This document shows, one piece after another, positions 1 to 19,887 of a DNA stretch of 44,947 nt (its first letter is position 1; each line of letters starts with the position of its first letter). This DNA comes from Erysipelotrichaceae bacterium (GTDB taxonomy: Bacteria > Bacillota_I > Bacilli_A > Erysipelotrichales > Erysipelotrichaceae). The notes beneath the pieces are model-generated. The model ran no database searches and was not told the DNA's origin. It was given only the letters and a program-made list of their open reading frames with translations. A program made the position numbers and the translations under genes. The stretch spans positions 1 through 44,947 of the forward strand of contig JALENJ010000022.1 in the NCBI GenBank assembly GCA_022767445.1, given 5' to 3'.

Positions 1-660
1 AACTACAACAGTATGATTGGTAAATGAGGCGGGTAGATGGCAGGAAAGATGTATGTCTTACTCTGGGAGGTCTTATCAGTGTCAAAGATGAGGTAGAGAA
101 CGCTACGCAGTCGATAGGCATAGTAACAACGAATGATAAGAAGTCAGCAGAGGCCATAGTAGTCCGAAAGGATAAAGGGCCAAACAGAACTTAAGTTTTA
201 CGAGTTTCAAAATTGTATGACCGATTCCTCGAAACAGTCTGTGCTGTCCCAAGGGTGGACTTAAGACCGGGAAAGTTCAAGCGAAGGAAAGGGAGCCAGT
301 GGGATTGATGGGATGAAGGTAGATGAGCTCAAAGAATACATATGCAAGTATGGCGAGAGTATCACACAAAAGATACGACAAAGGAAGTATAAGCCACTAG
401 CAGTCAGAAGAGTACAGATACCAAAGTCAGACGGAACCAAAAGAGACCTTGGGATACCTGCGGTAAAAGACCGATGGATACAACAAGCAATCTATCAGGT
501 GCTAAACCCGATATTTGAAGAAGTGTTTTCAGAACATAGTTACGGATTCAGACCAAGAAGAAGTTGTGAACCGCCGTATACCGAACGGTACGTACGGTGG
601 TGTGAGAGGTCGGAAGTTTTAAAACTCTTTAAAACTCTTTAAAACTTCCTCCTACTCGAT
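1..660 (+). mobile_element. Degenerate group II intron (3' part), ORF internally deleted
   Basis: The left end of the window is the remains of a bacterial group II intron; its 5' end lies outside. Bases 1-216 read like intron RNA scaffold with no open frame. A damaged reverse-transcriptase frame follows (217-569). A recognisable domain V then occupies about 570-601: a 9-bp outer stem (570-578 with 593-601), a CG bulge at 591-592, and an inner TACC/GGTA stem closed by a GAAC loop. Domain VI follows (about 605-660). It contains a tandem duplication of AAAACTCTTT (621-640) and ends near CTACTCGAT, a typical 3' end. Most of the reverse transcriptase, including the catalytic YADD motif, is missing between about 565 and 570, so the element cannot move on its own. 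The 3' end runs into the last codons of the AraC gene on the other strand. Group II identity is confident; the exact 3' boundary is estimated. Confidence 0.8.
217..569 (+). pseudogene. ltrA: Truncated group II intron reverse transcriptase/maturase (LtrA-like)
   Basis: An ATG at 217 opens a frame that meets TAA at 262-264. The same frame then continues with the conserved RT0/RT1 stretch (GKGASGIDGMKVDEL, then PLAVRRVQIPKSDGTKRDLGIP) and the RT2/3 start YGFRPRRSC at about 541-567. After that the frame runs directly into intron domain V, so its last residues up to 642 are not protein sequence. Known maturases are about 400-600 residues, so about three quarters is lost: the YADD active site, domain X and the DNA-binding/endonuclease part. 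The early stop and the shortened N-terminus are further damage. This is a remnant with no expected activity. Confidence 0.8.
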
Positions 661-6149: not shown

Positions 6150-8291
6150 ATGAGTTATGGTAGAGTAACGGTGCCAACCGATATCGATGTAATCGACGAT
6201 ACAATCAAGATTATTAAAAAGTGGAAAGCAGATGCGATTCGTGATTGCGATGGTACAGATATGCCACAGGCTTTACGCCAGATGGATATTAAGCAATATG
6301 CGACATACTACACAACACGCAAAGATAATGAGTGGGCGAAAGCCCATCCAGAACAAATGCAACAGATGTATCTGATGAGTGATTTTATCACCGCAAAAGA
6401 TACCTGCTTGCATGTACGCATCATGGAACACTTTTACAAAGATCAATTCAAAGTCAATCCTACAGATGATATTCATCGTTGGTGGGAAGTTATTGATCGA
6501 ACAACAGATACTGTTGTAACAAACTGGTATTATGATGAGAACGAAGGGGAAGTAGTCATTGAGGAAACAATCCCATACCATGCATACACAGTTAGCTTTT
6601 TAGCATTTGTTATATGGGATCCAGTACACATGTACAACTCATTAACCAATGATTGGTCTGATGAAGAACATCAGATGACATTGGATGTACGCTTACCAGA
6701 AACCCAACAGCACGTCATTGAGAAATTACATAAGTTCTGTCAAGAAAGAACAGATGTAAATGTGGTGCGTTTTACAACATTCTTCCACCAATTTACGTTG
6801 GAGTTTGACGAATTTGCCAGAGAGAAATTTGTAGATTGGTATGGATATAGTGCCTCTGTATCACCATATATCTTAGACAAATTCGAAAAAGAAGTTGGTT
6901 ATCCATTTAGACCGGAATATATTATCAATAAAGGTTTCCAAAACAGTCAGTTCTGTATTCCGACAAAGGAATATAAAGACTTCATTGACTTCCAGCAAAG
7001 AGAAGTCTGCAAACTTGCCAAGCAGATGGTAGATATCTGCCATTCCTATGGAAAAGAAGCCATGATGTTTTTAGGGGACCACTGGATTGGAACAGAGCCA
7101 TTTGGTAAGTACTTTGCGGAAATTGGCTTAGACGCTGTTGTAGGTAGTGTTGGATCAGGTTCTACATTACGTCTAATATCCGATATCAAAGGGGTTAAAT
7201 ATACAGAAGGAAGATTCTTGCCATACTTTTTCCCAGATGTATTCCATGAGGGCGGAGATCCTCTACAAGAAGCGAAAGTCAATTGGGTCACAGCACGTCG
7301 TGCAATCTTACGCAGCCCAGTTGATCGAATTGGCTATGGTGGATATCTAAAACTAGCATTGAAGTTCCCTAAGTTTATTGATTATGTTGAACAGGTATGT
7401 GATGAATTTAGAGAATTGTATAGCCATGTTGGTAAACAAACACCATTAAACTTAATGAAGGTAGCTGTATTAAACAGCTATGGTGAGTTACGCCGTTGGG
7501 GTGCACATCTTGTTCATCACGCAATTCGCTATAAACAGATATATTCCTATACAGGTGTACTAGAAGCACTTAGCGGATTCCCATTCGATGTACGTTTTAT
7601 CAGCTTTGAAGAATTGCGTGAAAATCCAAACTTACTAGATGATATTGATGTTGTATTAAACTACGGTAGTAGTTATACAAGCTTTAGTGGTGGCGAACAA
7701 TTTGATGAGGAAATCATCACTATCTTACGTCGATATGTTGACCAGGGTGGAGGATTCATCGGTGTTGGTGAACCAACCGCTTGTGCCAAGAACGGAAAGT
7801 TCTTTACACTTTATGATGTTTTAGGTGTTGATAAAGAACTAGACTTCACACTCCATACAGATAAATACAACTGGCAAACACACGATCATTTTATCAGTGA
7901 GCAGCTAGAACATGAAGACTGGGGTGAGAATGTTAACAGTGTATATGCATTACCAGGTACAACAGTCATCAAACAAGAAGACTTATCCGTTAAACTAGCA
8001 GTTAACCAATACGGAAAAGGAAGAGCAGTATACATGAATGGCTTACCATTCAGCTTTGAAAATACGAGACTACTGTATCGTGCAATCTTCTATGTAGCAC
8101 ATAAAGAAGACCAAATGAAACAGTGGTACTCTGATAACTACAATGTTGATGTGAATGTATATCCATCTACACAAAGCTATTGCGCAGTCAATAACACCTA
8201 TGAACCACAAGATACAACGATCTACCGTGGGGATGGTTCAAGCTTTACATTGCATTTAGATGAGAATGAAATTCAATGGTTTGATATGTAA
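6150..8291 (+). CDS. gnpA: 1,3-beta-galactosyl-N-acetylhexosamine phosphorylase (GH112)
   Basis: This 713-residue cytoplasmic enzyme splits galacto-N-biose (Gal-beta-1,3-GalNAc) or lacto-N-biose (Gal-beta-1,3-GlcNAc) with phosphate, giving galactose 1-phosphate and the N-acetylhexosamine. The family is recognisable from the start (GRVTVPTDIDV, then ADAIRDCDGTDMP). Other family features are the FTTFFHQFTLEFDEFA segment, FLGDHWIGTEP with Asp310 at the expected catalytic acid position (Asp313 in the Bifidobacterium longum enzyme, from memory), and the C-terminal beta domain ending IQWFDM. Length matches the family (~710-750). It is the last gene of the operon, 12 bases after the ATPase, and is followed by a terminator. 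No galactose 1-phosphate or GalNAc-processing genes are in the window. GNB versus LNB preference cannot be read by eye. Confidence 0.93.
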   Translation: MSYGRVTVPTDIDVIDDTIKIIKKWKADAIRDCDGTDMPQALRQMDIKQYATYYTTRKDNEWAKAHPEQMQQMYLMSDFITAKDTCLHVRIMEHFYKDQFKVNPTDDIHRWWEVIDRTTDTVVTNWYYDENEGEVVIEETIPYHAYTVSFLAFVIWDPVHMYNSLTNDWSDEEHQMTLDVRLPETQQHVIEKLHKFCQERTDVNVVRFTTFFHQFTLEFDEFAREKFVDWYGYSASVSPYILDKFEKEVGYPFRPEYIINKGFQNSQFCIPTKEYKDFIDFQQREVCKLAKQMVDICHSYGKEAMMFLGDHWIGTEPFGKYFAEIGLDAVVGSVGSGSTLRLISDIKGVKYTEGRFLPYFFPDVFHEGGDPLQEAKVNWVTARRAILRSPVDRIGYGGYLKLALKFPKFIDYVEQVCDEFRELYSHVGKQTPLNLMKVAVLNSYGELRRWGAHLVHHAIRYKQIYSYTGVLEALSGFPFDVRFISFEELRENPNLLDDIDVVLNYGSSYTSFSGGEQFDEEIITILRRYVDQGGGFIGVGEPTACAKNGKFFTLYDVLGVDKELDFTLHTDKYNWQTHDHFISEQLEHEDWGENVNSVYALPGTTVIKQEDLSVKLAVNQYGKGRAVYMNGLPFSFENTRLLYRAIFYVAHKEDQMKQWYSDNYNVDVNVYPSTQSYCAVNNTYEPQDTTIYRGDGSSFTLHLDENEIQWFDM

Positions 8292-8293
8292 GG

Positions 8294-8318
8294 ACAGGAG
8301 AGAAATCTCCTGTTTTTT
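8294..8318 (+). terminator. Intrinsic terminator of the GNB/LNB operon
   Basis: An 8-bp perfect stem ACAGGAGA/TCTCCTGT closed by a GAAA tetraloop is followed by six T residues. It starts three bases after the phosphorylase stop codon. Confidence 0.9.
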
Positions 8319-8391
8319 AATCATAATCAATTCATAAAGATTGTTATGGAATGAATGTTATATGCGGTATATAGAAGTGGAGGTATCAGGT

Positions 8392-9540
8392 ATGAGATGT
8401 ATACGTTGTGGAAATACGGATAAGTCTTACTTCTATCAAGGAAAAGCAGGTATGTATTGTCGCAAATGTATCGGTTTTGGTAGAGCGATGATGGAAGAGG
8501 ATCATGAGGGTATTCAGTTGGATCAGGTTCATGAGGATAGTAGTGAATATTGTTTACAATATCCATTAACGAAATATCAAAGGAAGGCATCGGATGAGTG
8601 TAGAGAGTATATTACAAAGATGGATGTGTTGTTGGAGTGTGTCTGTGGTGCTGGTAAGACGGAGATGGTGTTAGGAAGTATTTCTGATGCGTTAAGATGT
8701 GGGAAAAAGGTGTGTTTTGCGATTGCTAGAAGACAGGTTGTGCTGGAGCTTGCACAGCGTTTAAAGCAGTATTTTAGGCAAGCTAAAATTGTGGCTGTAT
8801 GTGGTGGTCATACCGATGAGTTGGATGGTGATTTGATTGTTTGTACGACGCATCAGTTGTATCGTTATCATCATTGTTTTTCTTTGTTGATATTGGATGA
8901 GCCGGATGCTTTTCCTTTTCGTGGTGACGCTGTATTGCATGGGATTGCGATGAATGCATGTATTGGTCATATCATTTATTTAACAGCGACACCAGATGAT
9001 GTTTTGATGAAACGTGTAAATGATGGACTGATGCGTCGTATAGTATTAAACCGTAGACCGCATGGTAAGGATTTACCTGTTCCGATCATTCGTATTCAAC
9101 CAGTATGGATGATGTTTATGACTTTGTTATACTGGTTAAGGAAACATGCATGCAAGCCAAGAATCGTATTTGTGCCTACAATTAAGCAAGCTAGGATTCT
9201 TGGTAGTGTGTTACATATGTTAATGCCCTGTTGTGTATGTACTAGTACCGCTGACAACAGGGATGAAATCATTGAACAATTTAAGAAAGATGAACATGTG
9301 GTTATGGTTGCCACGACGGTATTAGAAAGAGGAGTGACGATACCGAATGTAGATATCTGTATATGGCAAGCGAATCATTCGGTATTTGATGAAGCTGGTT
9401 TAATTCAAATGGCAGGTAGAGCTGGAAGAAGTTTCTTATCGCCAAGTGGAGATGTGCTGTTTTTATGTAATGAGAAAAGTAAACTTGTTGGTATCTGCAA
9501 AGATAAGATTGTGCAGGCGAATCAATCATGCGTTGCTTGA
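8392..9540 (+). CDS. comFA: ComFA, competence DNA-translocation helicase
   Basis: This is a 382-residue DEAD-type ATPase that in known systems helps pull single-stranded DNA through ComEC during transformation. The N-terminus carries the ComFA four-cysteine zinc site (CIRCGN near residue 3, YCRKC near residue 23). Helicase motifs follow: Walker A CGAGKTE, motif II LDEPD, motif III TATPDD and motif VI QMAGRAGRS. ATG 8392 is chosen because GGAGG lies eight bases upstream; an ATG at 8362 and a further in-frame start at 8341 lack a ribosome site. The 3' end overlaps comFC by 13 bases. ComFA motif II is DExx rather than strict DEAD, as in relatives. Confidence 0.88.
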   Translation: MRCIRCGNTDKSYFYQGKAGMYCRKCIGFGRAMMEEDHEGIQLDQVHEDSSEYCLQYPLTKYQRKASDECREYITKMDVLLECVCGAGKTEMVLGSISDALRCGKKVCFAIARRQVVLELAQRLKQYFRQAKIVAVCGGHTDELDGDLIVCTTHQLYRYHHCFSLLILDEPDAFPFRGDAVLHGIAMNACIGHIIYLTATPDDVLMKRVNDGLMRRIVLNRRPHGKDLPVPIIRIQPVWMMFMTLLYWLRKHACKPRIVFVPTIKQARILGSVLHMLMPCCVCTSTADNRDEIIEQFKKDEHVVMVATTVLERGVTIPNVDICIWQANHSVFDEAGLIQMAGRAGRSFLSPSGDVLFLCNEKSKLVGICKDKIVQANQSCVA

Positions 9541-14554: not shown

Positions 14555-14580
14555 AAAGGACGGCATATATACCGTCCTTT
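14555..14580. terminator. Bidirectional terminator between the RluA-type and NudC-like genes
   Basis: A 9-bp perfect stem AAAGGACGG/CCGTCCTTT with an eight-base loop sits between two converging genes. The stop codon of the leftward Nudix gene overlaps its right arm. Confidence 0.8.
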
Positions 14581-15388
14581 ATTGTACATTTCCTTGTTTA
14601 TAATACTGGATCATTTCTGAAGTCAAAGATGAATTGTCTAATGTGTTGATATCTTCATCTTTGTTTGCCCAACGGGCAACACGTAGTTCATTTTCATCCA
14701 TTTTGATGGTTTGGTTTCCATGTGCCTTACCCCAGAAACCAAATAAGATTGTGGATGTAAATGACCAAGGTTGAGATTTATAGTATTTCAAATCCGTGAT
14801 ATCCAGACCAGTTTCTTCTTTAACTTCACGTTTGACAGTCTCTTCAATTGTTTCACCAATCTCACAAAAGCCGGCGACGAGTGCGTAGTTTTGATAGGCA
14901 CCATGTGCGTATTTTGTGACTAGGATTTGTCCTTGGTCGTTGGTAATACCAACGATGACAGCAGGTGATATCTTTGGATATACGATATGGTTGCACTGTG
15001 GACAGCGCATGGCACGTTCTTTCTTGTCGTATTCCATCGTATGACCACATTTACCACAATATTGGTTTTCTTCAATCCAGCGATAGATTTGCCATGCTGT
15101 GATAGCCGCAAAACCTAATGTTGGATTTTCATAGGTACGTAGCTTTTGATAGGATATCGATACATGTGGTAAATCTTGTAAGTCTGCTAGGAAATACTGC
15201 GTTTCATCAATTGTAAATAAGTAATACAGTGATTTTATGGAATCAATCTGTTGGTATGTATAGAAGTGATGGTCATCTTGAAGGATCACTTGGTCGTGAT
15301 CAAAGGAGAAGATGATATCATGACTTACAGGTTTTCTGTCTGTTTGAAATGCGTTTTTATAAATATGTGGATATATATCTTGTATCAT
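14579..15388 (-). CDS. nudC: NudC-like NADH pyrophosphatase/RNA deNADding Nudix hydrolase
   Basis: This is a 269-residue Nudix enzyme. The zinc ribbon has four cysteines (CGKCGHTM, then RCPQCNHIVYPKISP). The Nudix box is GFCEIGETIEETVKREVKEE followed by TGL, containing the GX5EX7REUXEEXG pattern. Downstream, SQPWSF is the NudC hallmark that distinguishes NAD(H)-cleaving enzymes from other Nudix proteins. It would cut NADH, or NAD caps on RNA, to NMN and AMP. The start at 15388 (MIQDIYPH) is preferred because GGAGG lies eight bases upstream; the frame could extend back to 15430, through the ribosome site. A TATAAT box lies on this strand near 15440. Confidence 0.85.
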   Translation of the reverse strand: MIQDIYPHIYKNAFQTDRKPVSHDIIFSFDHDQVILQDDHHFYTYQQIDSIKSLYYLFTIDETQYFLADLQDLPHVSISYQKLRTYENPTLGFAAITAWQIYRWIEENQYCGKCGHTMEYDKKERAMRCPQCNHIVYPKISPAVIVGITNDQGQILVTKYAHGAYQNYALVAGFCEIGETIEETVKREVKEETGLDITDLKYYKSQPWSFTSTILFGFWGKAHGNQTIKMDENELRVARWANKDEDINTLDNSSLTSEMIQYYKQGNVQ

Positions 15389-15754
15389 GTGATTATCCTC
15401 CATAAAAAGAAATGGTCCCTCTTGGACCAATAAGATAATTATACGCCAAATAAATATAAATTAATAGACTTCCAAATTTTTTGTTTGATGTTATAGTATG
15501 AGTGAAAAGAGAAGTACCAATCAGAAAGGAAAAGGAGGTACAGGCTCATGAAGGAAGTGTTACTCAATTACAACAAAAGCATCCAGTTATAAATGGATGA
15601 ACTGTTTTTCCAGAAAGTCGAGGATAGACCGATGGACAGAAAAGGTGAAAATTGAATATCATTAAGAATTTGTAATATACAAATGTTTCTGAAATCCAAA
15701 TTTCAGTAGCGATAGATTCGCAGTTTTGTTTTAAAACATACATTTATAGCATCA
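15389..15754. other. Gene-poor gap with a possible small transcript
   Basis: About 365 bases with no convincing gene. On the plus strand there is an extended -10 (TGTTATAGT, 15489-15497). A very strong ribosome site (AAAGGAGGT, 15532-15540) follows, then ATG 15548 opening a 14-codon frame (MKEVLLNYNKSIQL) that ends at TAA 15590. An ATG follows immediately in the same frame, with 20 more codons to TGA 15653. A CTGAAAT/ATTTCAG hairpin lies near 15690-15707. This could be a small peptide, a leader, or the front of a decayed gene. Another frame over 15560-15642 reads like protein (IDRWTEKVKIEYH), which favours decay. Nothing firm can be assigned. Confidence 0.4.
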
Positions 15755-15815
15755 AAAAAGGTCTCGCCATATAGAAACCGTTGGTAGATTCAGCAGGGTT
15801 TCATCGAGACCTTTT
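15755..15815 (-). terminator. Terminator of the P-type ATPase-like gene
   Basis: On the minus strand, AAAAGGTCTCG pairs with CGAGACCTTTTTT across 61 bases. An inner GAAACC/GGTTTC stem and a T-run at the far side complete it. It overlaps the stop codon of the leftward gene at 15814. Confidence 0.75.
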
Positions 15816-17913
15816 ATTGTTGTGTATGTTTTCTAAATAGGAAGTGAATCATACCGATGGATGAAATACATGGTAAGATCACAGGAAGTGGTAAATCAAA
15901 GAAGATTGGGATGAGGAATCCAAATAGTAGAATGGCGATCACGTGATATACGATAATCAGTATCTGGTCGAACTGGATTCTTTGATTAAGCGTTGCGGAT
16001 ATTTGCATAGCTTGTGCTAGGTCATCCAAACGGTTTCTTGTGATGATGATATCTTTATTACGATCACTTAAATCTGAGCTGATTCCAAAGTGTGTATGGA
16101 TATCGACGTTTGGATGATATGTATTGGCTAGTGTACCTGCATACATGGTTACTTCATCATGCGTGCATGATTGTATAATAGCATCTTTTTCTTCCCTATT
16201 TTTTACTTGATGAATGTAGGTGATATGTGTTTCTTGTTGGATATAATGTTGTTCCTCTTGGGAGGAGTTGGTGAACAGATGAATCTCTGCATTTTGTTTG
16301 ATCTTATCTAGTGCCGGGATACTACTTGTTAGTAGTGGTTTGGCAAATGCGACGATACCAAGCTTATTCTCTTCATTTTGTAGTAGGAAGACTGTTTTAC
16401 CCTGTGCTAATAGTTGTTTGCAGGTATCATCGATTACAGATAGCTCTTTCACGTTTGTTAGCTTGTAGGTATTGTTTTGTGTGTTGTTTTGTAGGCGTGT
16501 GATATCTTCTCGATTCGTCGATGATGTTAGATGTGTCTTTAGATAACGACTTATCGCTAGTGAATATACATCATGTCGTTTGTTAGATAGTTTGTATACG
16601 ATGTAACGCATATAGCTGCTATCTTCTTGTTGAAGTGGTAAGAAGTCGGTGACTTCTGGTTTTGCCTGCATGATAATATCATCTTGTTCTAGGAAGATGG
16701 TCTCTGTTTTGCCTGCCATCTCAAGTGCGTCTACACTGCGGAATAGAATGTGTTTCTTTGCGGCGTATAGAGCACTTGCAAGTACTTCTTTTTCGGATGC
16801 GATTGTTAGTGCGTTCATCGCCACGGAAGCAAGAACTGCTACGACGATACTCAATGTATTAGATAAGGATCTGCCGATGAGTAACCATCCAGCAAATAAA
16901 ACGATAGCAGTAATAATCGCATAGAAGAACAGATATCGACTAAAGTTTTTAAATGGGGAGTCGAACGATTTGTCATTTGCGGTTTCCTTGGCAAGCTTTG
17001 CGAATTGTAATAGCGTTGTTTTTTCGCCGATTTTCTCGGCGCGTATTTGTAGGGAACCGTGAATACAACGTGTACCTGCATAGACATTGGAGCCTTCTGC
17101 TTTGGTGATGGTGGAATCTAGTCCTGTTAGGGTGGATTCATCCACAGCTGCGTATCCATCGATGACGATACCATCGACAGGGATGATTTCATTTGGTCGT
17201 ATAATCAATATCTGATTTTTTTGTATCTTGGTTGTCTTTGAAATTGTCTCTGTATAATTTTTATATACCGATGTGTTTTCTGGTATGTATTGATTAAGAT
17301 GATAAGATTGTTTAGAAATTGCTTGCATGTACTTAAGGTATTTAGTCTTATACATACTGGAAGCTAGAATTGCGATAATTGATAAAATAAATGGATATGC
17401 ACTGACTAGGTTTTGTGTAGCTAAATAGATACCATATATCAATGAAATAATAACTGCTAGACTACTAAGTACTGCGGTCGATGGATTGTGTTTCTTGATT
17501 TCCTCACCAGCATGCATGAATAGAGATCGACCGATATACATTGCGTATACCGACAACAATAATGCAATCCATGGGGTAAGTTTGATTAACCATAGGATGA
17601 GGACAATCACCATCACAATCAATAGGACAAAGACATTGCGATAATTAGGTTCTGGGACTTCAAGATGGTCTTCAACAAATTGGTTGGTGGTGTATTCATG
17701 TGTATATGCGTGATATCCACAGCTTTTTATCTTTTGTGCGATTTGTTCTGGTGTAATGATATCAGGTTGATATTCTACAACGACGTTTCTTTCACTTAAA
17801 GAAACATGTACGGTGATGATTCCTGTTGTATGGATAAGACAGTTGTAGATCGTATCGGCACTTGCTTGTAGATATAAGTTTGCGACTGAAAATGTTTGTG
17901 TAACTGTTTCCAT
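15814..17913 (-). CDS. Catalytically dead P1B-type (heavy-metal) P-type ATPase homologue
   Basis: This 699-residue intact frame has the full architecture of a copper/metal P-type ATPase. There is an HMA-like domain (residues 1-75), then membrane segments near 94-110, 113-127, 147-165 and 172-187. The actuator domain follows (about 200-300, with VDESTLTG), then membrane segments near 327-345 and 352-372, the P/N domains (about 395-620) and two final helices (about 650-690). Every functional motif is changed. The HMA CxxC is absent and TGE is TGL (263-265). The membrane CPC is replaced by AMN (365-367), and DKTGT by EQDDI (409-413). The N-domain HP is HD, TGD is TNS, and GDGxND is replaced by AGTLAN (592-597). 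It therefore cannot form the phosphoenzyme. The absence of stops or frameshifts over 2.1 kb argues that it is still selected. An AAGAGG site precedes the ATG. Its role is unknown; metal sensing, scaffolding or partnering another pump are guesses. Confidence 0.8.
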   Translation of the reverse strand: METVTQTFSVANLYLQASADTIYNCLIHTTGIITVHVSLSERNVVVEYQPDIITPEQIAQKIKSCGYHAYTHEYTTNQFVEDHLEVPEPNYRNVFVLLIVMVIVLILWLIKLTPWIALLLSVYAMYIGRSLFMHAGEEIKKHNPSTAVLSSLAVIISLIYGIYLATQNLVSAYPFILSIIAILASSMYKTKYLKYMQAISKQSYHLNQYIPENTSVYKNYTETISKTTKIQKNQILIIRPNEIIPVDGIVIDGYAAVDESTLTGLDSTITKAEGSNVYAGTRCIHGSLQIRAEKIGEKTTLLQFAKLAKETANDKSFDSPFKNFSRYLFFYAIITAIVLFAGWLLIGRSLSNTLSIVVAVLASVAMNALTIASEKEVLASALYAAKKHILFRSVDALEMAGKTETIFLEQDDIIMQAKPEVTDFLPLQQEDSSYMRYIVYKLSNKRHDVYSLAISRYLKTHLTSSTNREDITRLQNNTQNNTYKLTNVKELSVIDDTCKQLLAQGKTVFLLQNEENKLGIVAFAKPLLTSSIPALDKIKQNAEIHLFTNSSQEEQHYIQQETHITYIHQVKNREEKDAIIQSCTHDEVTMYAGTLANTYHPNVDIHTHFGISSDLSDRNKDIIITRNRLDDLAQAMQISATLNQRIQFDQILIIVYHVIAILLFGFLIPIFFDLPLPVILPCISSIGMIHFLFRKHTQQ

Positions 17914-17950: not shown

Positions 17951-18063
17951 AATAGAAACTTTATTCCTAGAATTATTCATTGGGATTGTGTTTATCTACA
18001 ATCTTTTAGTTAGTTATTTCTAACAAAGTGAAGCGCTATATCGCTTGTTTTCAAAAATATGAG

Positions 18064-18069
18064 TATAAT
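18064..18069 (+). promoter_or_regulatory. Candidate -10 box of the aminopeptidase gene
   Basis: A perfect TATAAT lies 18 bases before ATG 18088, with GAGGTG in between. The -35 is poor. If used, it rules out the in-frame start at 18028, because that codon would precede the transcript. Confidence 0.45.
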
Positions 18070-18087
18070 AAATACGAGGTGAAAAAT

Positions 18088-19887
18088 ATGATGATACAAG
18101 ATAGAATTCAAAAATTAAGAGAGTTGATGGCAGAACGTAAAATCAATGTTTACTATATTCCGAATGAAGATGATCATCTTTCTGATGAATATACAGCAGA
18201 CTATTTTAAGAGTAAGTCATACATGTCCGGCTTCAGTGGTGAATCTGGATGCACGATTGTCACAAAAGATTTCGCTGGTCTTTGGACAGATGGAAGATTC
18301 TTTACACAGGCGGAAGATGAATTAAAGGGAACTGGTGTTACTCTGATGAGACTTCGTCAAGAAGGTGTACCTAATCCAATTGATTTCTTGATTGATAACA
18401 CACCAAAAAATGGTGTATTAGGATTTGATGGTTCTGTTGTTTCTGCTAAGAATTATCTACATCTAGAAAGTGCTTTAAAACAAAAGAAAGCAACTCTTTA
18501 CACAAGTGAAGATCTAGTAGATGTTGTTTGGGGTAAAGATAGACCAGCAATGCCTATGGAACCATTGTATGTATTACCTAAGAAGTATACAGGTGAAGAG
18601 GCTAGCGATAGAATTGCTCGTGTACGTCAAGCTATGAAGAACAGCGGTGCTGATGTGTTGTTGTTAACAGCGCTTGAAGATCCATGCTGGACTTTAAATA
18701 TCCGTGGTAATGATATTGCATGCACACCAGTAAGCTATGCATTCATGATGGTTACGGATAAGAAGATTAACTACTATATAGATAAGAAGAAGTTAACAGC
18801 CAAGGTTGAAAAACACTTCAAGGATAACAAGGTAACGGTTCGTCCTTATACTGCACTTCTCAAGGATCTAACGAAGTTAACAGGCAAGAAGGTATGGGCT
18901 GATATGTCTCACTTAAATGCCAACTTCTATGCGGCACTTGAAGGCAATCAGATCATCGATGCGATTTCTCCAGTTGTGTATTTCCGTGCAATCAAGAATA
19001 AGACAGAAATCAAGAATACACGTAACGCACACGTTAAGGATGCGGTTGCGATGATTCAGTTCTTAAACTGGGTAAAGACAAATGTTGTAAAAGGCAAAAT
19101 GACTGAAGTTAGTGCACAAGATCATCTATATACATTACGTGCAAAACAGAAGGATTATATCGAACCATCATTTGAAACAATTTGTGCTTATCAAGAAAAC
19201 GCTGCGATGATGCACTATACAGCTACCCAAGAAAAACATGCGAATGTTAAGGCAAGAGGTTTCTTGTTGGTAGACTCTGGTGGAACATATAAAGATGGTA
19301 CAACAGATATCACTCGTACCATTGCCCTAGGCAACTTAACGAGTGAAGAAAAGAAGTTATATACAAAAGTACTAAAGGGACATCTTGATCTATTACATGC
19401 TAAGTTCTTGTATGGAACAACAGGTAATAACTTAGATATCTTAGCAAGAAATCCTCTATGGAATGATTGCATAGATTACCAATGCGGTACTGGTCATGGT
19501 GTTGGTCATGTACTATCCGTACATGAAGGCCCACAGGGTATCCGTTGGGGTATGCCAGTGAATGGTAGAGCTGTTGCTTTACAAGAGGGTATGGTTGTTA
19601 CTGATGAACCAGGTGTATATCTACCACATAAGTTAGGTATTCGTATTGAGAATGAGATGATTGTTCAAAAGGAAGAGAAGAACTTCTACGGACAATTCTT
19701 ATCCTTTGAGAATATTACATATGTACCATATGATCGCGATGCGATTGATCCACAATATCTCAGTGATGAAGAGTTAAATTGGATTAATGCATATCACAAG
19801 ATGATTTGGGAGAAGATTGGACCATTACTGACTGGTAAGGATAAGACCTTCCTCAAGAAGGCAACTGGAAAGATTACTCGCGCATGA
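18088..19887 (+). CDS. Xaa-Pro aminopeptidase (aminopeptidase P, M24B family)
   Basis: This 599-residue cytoplasmic metallopeptidase removes N-terminal residues before proline. It has the three-domain form: two creatinase-like N-terminal domains (about 1-300), the pita-bread catalytic domain (about 305-540) and a short C-terminal extension. Metal ligands are visible in DSGGTYKDGTTDITRT (two Asp), GTGHGVGHVLSVHEGP (His), TDEPGVYL (Glu) and GIRIENEM (Glu). ATG 18088 has GAGGTG six bases upstream; ATG 18091 is equally possible. The next gene starts inside its stop codon (ATGA), so the two are co-translated. Confidence 0.88.
   Translation: MMIQDRIQKLRELMAERKINVYYIPNEDDHLSDEYTADYFKSKSYMSGFSGESGCTIVTKDFAGLWTDGRFFTQAEDELKGTGVTLMRLRQEGVPNPIDFLIDNTPKNGVLGFDGSVVSAKNYLHLESALKQKKATLYTSEDLVDVVWGKDRPAMPMEPLYVLPKKYTGEEASDRIARVRQAMKNSGADVLLLTALEDPCWTLNIRGNDIACTPVSYAFMMVTDKKINYYIDKKKLTAKVEKHFKDNKVTVRPYTALLKDLTKLTGKKVWADMSHLNANFYAALEGNQIIDAISPVVYFRAIKNKTEIKNTRNAHVKDAVAMIQFLNWVKTNVVKGKMTEVSAQDHLYTLRAKQKDYIEPSFETICAYQENAAMMHYTATQEKHANVKARGFLLVDSGGTYKDGTTDITRTIALGNLTSEEKKLYTKVLKGHLDLLHAKFLYGTTGNNLDILARNPLWNDCIDYQCGTGHGVGHVLSVHEGPQGIRWGMPVNGRAVALQEGMVVTDEPGVYLPHKLGIRIENEMIVQKEEKNFYGQFLSFENITYVPYDRDAIDPQYLSDEELNWINAYHKMIWEKIGPLLTGKDKTFLKKATGKITRA

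Follow-up and report, generated by a model that had tools for sequence, protein, structure and literature searches.

Among kinases and proteases, pseudoenzymes are a familiar phenomenon. A described family of catalytically dead P-type ATPases in bacteria was not found in the open literature, a search that leaves subscription papers largely uncovered, and this agrees with the original prediction, which knew of no characterised bacterial family like the protein described here. The closest described systems are the CopA-type P1B-1 ATPases (A. fulgidus 3j09, 7r0g and human ATP7B), which have domain order, fold and descent in common with this pseudo-ATPase and occupy the same locus in other genera. 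In contrast to them, the pseudo-ATPase lacks all six catalytic or metal-binding motifs as well as the C-terminal HMA domain. By description, the nearest analogue is human TMEM94 (ERMA), which has a P-type ATPase-like architecture. It has been reported to lack both TGES and ATPase activity (PMC12134183), whereas it is called a Mg2+-ATPase in the abstract of PMC13322241, so that its activity is disputed. TMEM94 differs in that it resides in the eukaryotic ER, has ten membrane helices and is most like SPCA; it is likened by description only, whereas copper P1B-ATPases are the closest relatives of the window protein in both sequence and fold.

Gene, fold and motif losses

The window is the whole stretch of 44,947 nucleotides that was analysed. 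The pseudo-ATPase gene and its parts lie at the following positions:

15814..17913, minus strand: pseudo-P1B-ATPase gene, 699 aa, ATG at 17913, with Pfam, NCBIfam and PDB sequence matches
17710..17895, minus strand: HMA-like N-terminal domain, residues 7-68, predicted ferredoxin-like beta-alpha-beta-beta-alpha-beta, CxxC replaced
16984..17286, minus strand: actuator domain, about residues 210-310, most conserved part, TGE changed to TGL
17119-17127, minus strand: former TGE, now TGL 263-265, in the catalytic loop of the actuator domain
16813..16821, minus strand: former membrane CPC site, now Ala-Met-Asn 365-367 (motif alignment)
16675..16689, minus strand: former DKTGT phosphorylation site, now EQDDI 409-413 (motif alignment)
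15943..15948, minus strand: Tyr656-His657 of the long penultimate helix; canonical CopA has Tyr-Asn here, 23/23 genus copies have Tyr-His

The frame is read from 17913 to 15814 without any internal stop, and the plus strand across the same interval contains many stops. The intact frame of 699 residues with the domain order of a P1B ATPase had been recognised in the original prediction, which did not state its strand. Homology to P1B ATPases spans nearly the whole protein, with Pfam matches to E1-E2_ATPase (2.6e-29) and HMA (1.1e-6), a match to A. fulgidus CopA 3j09 that covers residues 24-674 (1.3e-41, PDB sequence search) and an NCBIfam match to ATPase-IB_hvy (3e-53) that stays, with 181 bits, under the cutoff of 346 bits. 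Furthermore, the structural comparison with copper pumps that had been proposed bears this out, as the AlphaFold2 model (pLDDT 83.4, pTM 0.74) is confident and shows the full P1B fold, comprising the A, P and N domains and the membrane domain, along with a ferredoxin-like HMA domain and all membrane helices predicted. The best structural match is 7r0g (Z 33.5, rmsd 4.9, 596 residues), followed by ATP7B and HMA4. The top matches are copper P1B-ATPases and several are E1-type structures; an E1-like arrangement of the pseudo-ATPase is hinted at, in a predicted model that cannot fix the state.

All motif losses named in the original prediction are correct. In detail, the window protein reads LQASAD for CxxC, HD for HP, TNS for TGD and AGTLAN for GDGxND, so that the nucleotide and Mg motifs GDGxND and HP are missing, and the phosphorylatable Asp of DKTGT is absent as well. 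Because of these losses, the protein is probably unable to run the cycle of a P-type pump. An annotation based on the fold would name the gene a copper exporter, which is almost certainly wrong.

Orthologues and purifying selection

Full-length homologues in the genus were found by a search of relatives followed by a profile search. Orthologues are present in 23 of the 70 genomes of the genus, the window genome included, at identities of about 23-57%; with the window protein, most copies share about 23-33% and the copy of G061 57%. In 22 genomes the profile scores amount to 590-1075 bits, compared with about 250-340 bits for ordinary CopAs, and the 23rd copy (G034, 714 aa) is more divergent, with EQDDI and the same locus. 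All genus copies fall into one clade (support 100/100). In a wider contig scan, the 80 best among the matching loci were at most 28% identical and look, by score alone, like ordinary P1B ATPases; it has to be considered that many of the relatives are draft assemblies and that sampling beyond the family is thin.

Six motifs were scored (CxxC, TGE, CPC, DKTGT, HP and GDGxND), and all 23 genus copies have 0/6, whereas 20 canonical CopAs have 6/6. The Glu of TGE in the dephosphorylation loop, the membrane CPC/CPx metal site, the Cys ligands of the HMA domain and both the GDGxND acidic pair and TGD are gone from every copy (23/23), and the second Cys of the HMA domain is always Ser18. The only motif intermediate in the genus is a YPC remnant at the CPC site of G034. 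Sequencing error, chance or a chimera can be ruled out, as the same six losses recur in 22 further genus genomes. Orthologues that keep DKTGT, which had been put forward as a sign of recent decay, do not occur in the genus; among the copies at this locus, DKTGT persists in other genera alone, where it is the ancestral state.

At the former phosphorylation site the relatives read E-Q or D-Q. Five copies (G032, G026, G074, G016 and G083) keep the Asp as DQD, in a HAD-like DxD context, which would fit a re-tooled enzyme, its P domain acting either as a phosphatase of the HAD type or as an unusual ATPase. However, most copies have Glu at this site, and because the GDGxND acidic pair and TGD are lost throughout, there are no evident ligands for Mg2+ binding or for acid-base steps. 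We therefore regard such an enzyme as very unlikely.

Nei-Gojobori dN/dS in the closest pairs is 0.106 (G084/G062), 0.099 (G087/G067), 0.065 (G026/G074), 0.194 (G011/G017) and 0.155 (G079/G085). Over all pairs it ranges from 0.06 to 0.39 and is thus not near 1, the value named beforehand as a mark of decay; the upper values belong to the more distant pairs, whose synonymous sites are near saturation and whose ratios are rough. Wherever synonymous sites are unsaturated, the closest pairs stay below 0.3 in each domain, the cytosolic domains included, and the actuator domain is the best-conserved part despite the loss of its catalytic Glu. A dead copA, from which the catalytic residues are gone in all orthologues, has thus been kept under purifying selection on its frame. 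This is in line with the original prediction, which had assumed a pseudo-ATPase under selection as opposed to recent decay, and a recent pseudogene is ruled out by dN/dS, the open frames and a neutral simulation.

Constraint is weaker than in CopA. In six matched pairs, dN/dS is 0.05-0.16 for the canonical CopA and 0.16-0.39 for the dead copy, so that the two differ by a factor of about 1.4 in the window pair (G000/G061) and of 2-5 in the remaining matched pairs. This faster evolution, about seven losses of the gene and further-decayed copies in other genera (see below) would suit a functionless relic that decays slowly after a second copA had made the old copy redundant. In contrast, dN/dS is 0.06-0.19 in close pairs, and none of the 22 scored genus copies contains an internal stop, where at least 20 would be expected for a neutral pair (mean of 21-32 in the simulation at the synonymous divergence of close pairs). 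New invariant residues also speak against decay: at 15 positions a conserved CopA residue has given way to a different one that the dead copies conserve in turn, examples being Cys18 (now Ser), Gly388 (now His), Lys410 (now Gln) and Asn657 (now His). Within the genus the relic reading is largely refuted, and we consider it highly improbable.

The new His657 belongs to the Tyr-His pair of the long M5 helix. This invariant pair and the prediction of every membrane helix are what could be expected of a transporter or channel, passive or powered in another way, that retains the membrane path only. But the 23-copy alignment reveals no conserved new charged residues or Cys/Met set in place of CPC, and the cytosolic domains, for which a simple channel would have no use, are under purifying selection, too. 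Such a transport function is unlikely.

The ancestral copA locus

Two neighbouring genes define the locus in the window:

18028..19887, plus strand: Xaa-Pro aminopeptidase gene, marker of the ancestral locus and divergent from the pseudo-ATPase gene, with homology starting near 18088
14579..15430, minus strand: NUDIX hydrolase gene, downstream, in the conserved neighbourhood

In all but one of the carriers checked (the exception is G077), the pseudo-ATPase gene is divergent from the Xaa-Pro aminopeptidase gene, which is followed by exonuclease III and dipeptidase genes; on the other side lie NUDIX, an RluD-type synthase, prfB and secA. The gene is absent without remnant from about two thirds of the genus, with flanks mostly kept in those genomes, and because of this clean absence it is dispensable. 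In the aminopeptidase tree the carriers are dispersed and about 8 changes are counted (G010 was left out of the second tree), and the sister genus g74 also has dead copies; the pseudo-ATPase gene has undergone about seven clean losses. Horizontal acquisition by scattered species was rejected, since the gene occupies one and the same site in nearly all carriers and most of the absences are clean.

In other genera of the family, the same locus holds a canonical copA with 6/6 motifs (G121, 876 aa; G136, 843 aa; G260, 820 aa), adjoined by csoR in two of the three (G136 and G260). G250 (L211) has a near-canonical copA there, with DKTNT for DKTGT and SGES for TGES and with csoR present, and it is possible that this copy is an intermediate toward the loss of catalysis. 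Further dead copies at this locus were detected in two other genera (G314, L204; G313, L205; G135, L213). The copy of G314 is shortened to 567 aa on a contig that ends soon afterwards, and that of G135 is highly diverged, its homology resting on a weak score and on position. Synteny and homology show that the pseudo-ATPase descends from a copA beside the Xaa-Pro aminopeptidase gene that predates the genus. Across related genera, one locus thus holds the gene in its canonical, its near-canonical and its dead form, so that the conversion of a functional ion pump into a protein that no longer pumps can be traced and tested.

The genus also has a separate intact csoR-copA operon at another place, which in the window genome lies on contig G000:C30 (copA 6503-9013 and csoR 9024-9314, minus strand). 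The CopA proteins of the genus form a well-supported clade distinct from the dead clade, in a tree whose long branches leave the exact root unsure. An origin of the pseudo-ATPase from the current CopA of the genus is unsupported, as the CopA clade does not include the dead clade and an older copy is indicated by synteny.

The original prediction had also suggested a metal sensor or a chaperone. A sensor or chaperone for copper or another metal that acts through the HMA and membrane domains would be consistent with the retained HMA fold and the clear descent from CopA. However, the metal ligands of both HMA and CPC are gone, which makes a copper sensor or chaperone unlikely; furthermore, no csoR adjoins the pseudo-ATPase gene at the genus loci, and no consistent CopY/CsoR-like operator was found upstream (one chance-like match in 22). 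We consider this part of the prediction quite improbable.

Possible role and nearby elements

We think it fairly probable that the protein, which derives from an ancestral copA, cannot pump and serves in the membrane as a non-catalytic scaffold or regulator, the role of scaffold or regulator itself being our best guess. The ancestral copA was the neighbour of the Xaa-Pro aminopeptidase gene already before the genus emerged, and in the simplest history a second, phylogenetically distinct csoR-copA operon, judged by its sequence, took over copper export. The old copy has lost its csoR neighbour, the C-terminal HMA domain and all residues for phosphoryl transfer and copper binding, whereas purifying selection has preserved the fold and the open frame. 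In its most likely role, the pseudo-ATPase would be fixed near one conformation and would bind another protein via its conserved cytosolic domains; candidate partners might be CopA or a membrane protein without a link to copper. It is possible that the pseudo-ATPase holds another pump, as suggested at the outset, but three carriers (G084, G085 and G083) have no detectable canonical CopA orthologue, one of these assemblies being 94% complete and two only 80-86%. For this reason, an obligatory or fixed partnership with CopA appears weakened. Whether the protein stands for a new bacterial class of pseudo-pumps, in which a P-type ATPase turned into a non-pumping regulator or scaffold at its original locus, with canonical, near-canonical and dead forms in related genera, seems to us evenly balanced.

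Just downstream of the pseudo-ATPase gene, on the opposite strand, lies a conserved intergenic element (15431-15813, plus strand) with a strong Shine-Dalgarno sequence, a micro-ORF (MKEVLLNY...) at 15548, a terminator stem and hairpins that show compensatory changes. An Rfam search of this element gave no credible match. It occurs as a tandem duplicate in G011, G017, G067 and G087. Its start pattern was found in 20 of the 70 genus genomes, 17 of which carry the dead pump (Fisher p 1e-8, a value not independent of the tree). At the left edge of the window (112-660, plus strand), Rfam matches to group II introns were detected, namely RF01998 at 112-180 and RF00029 at 569-660.
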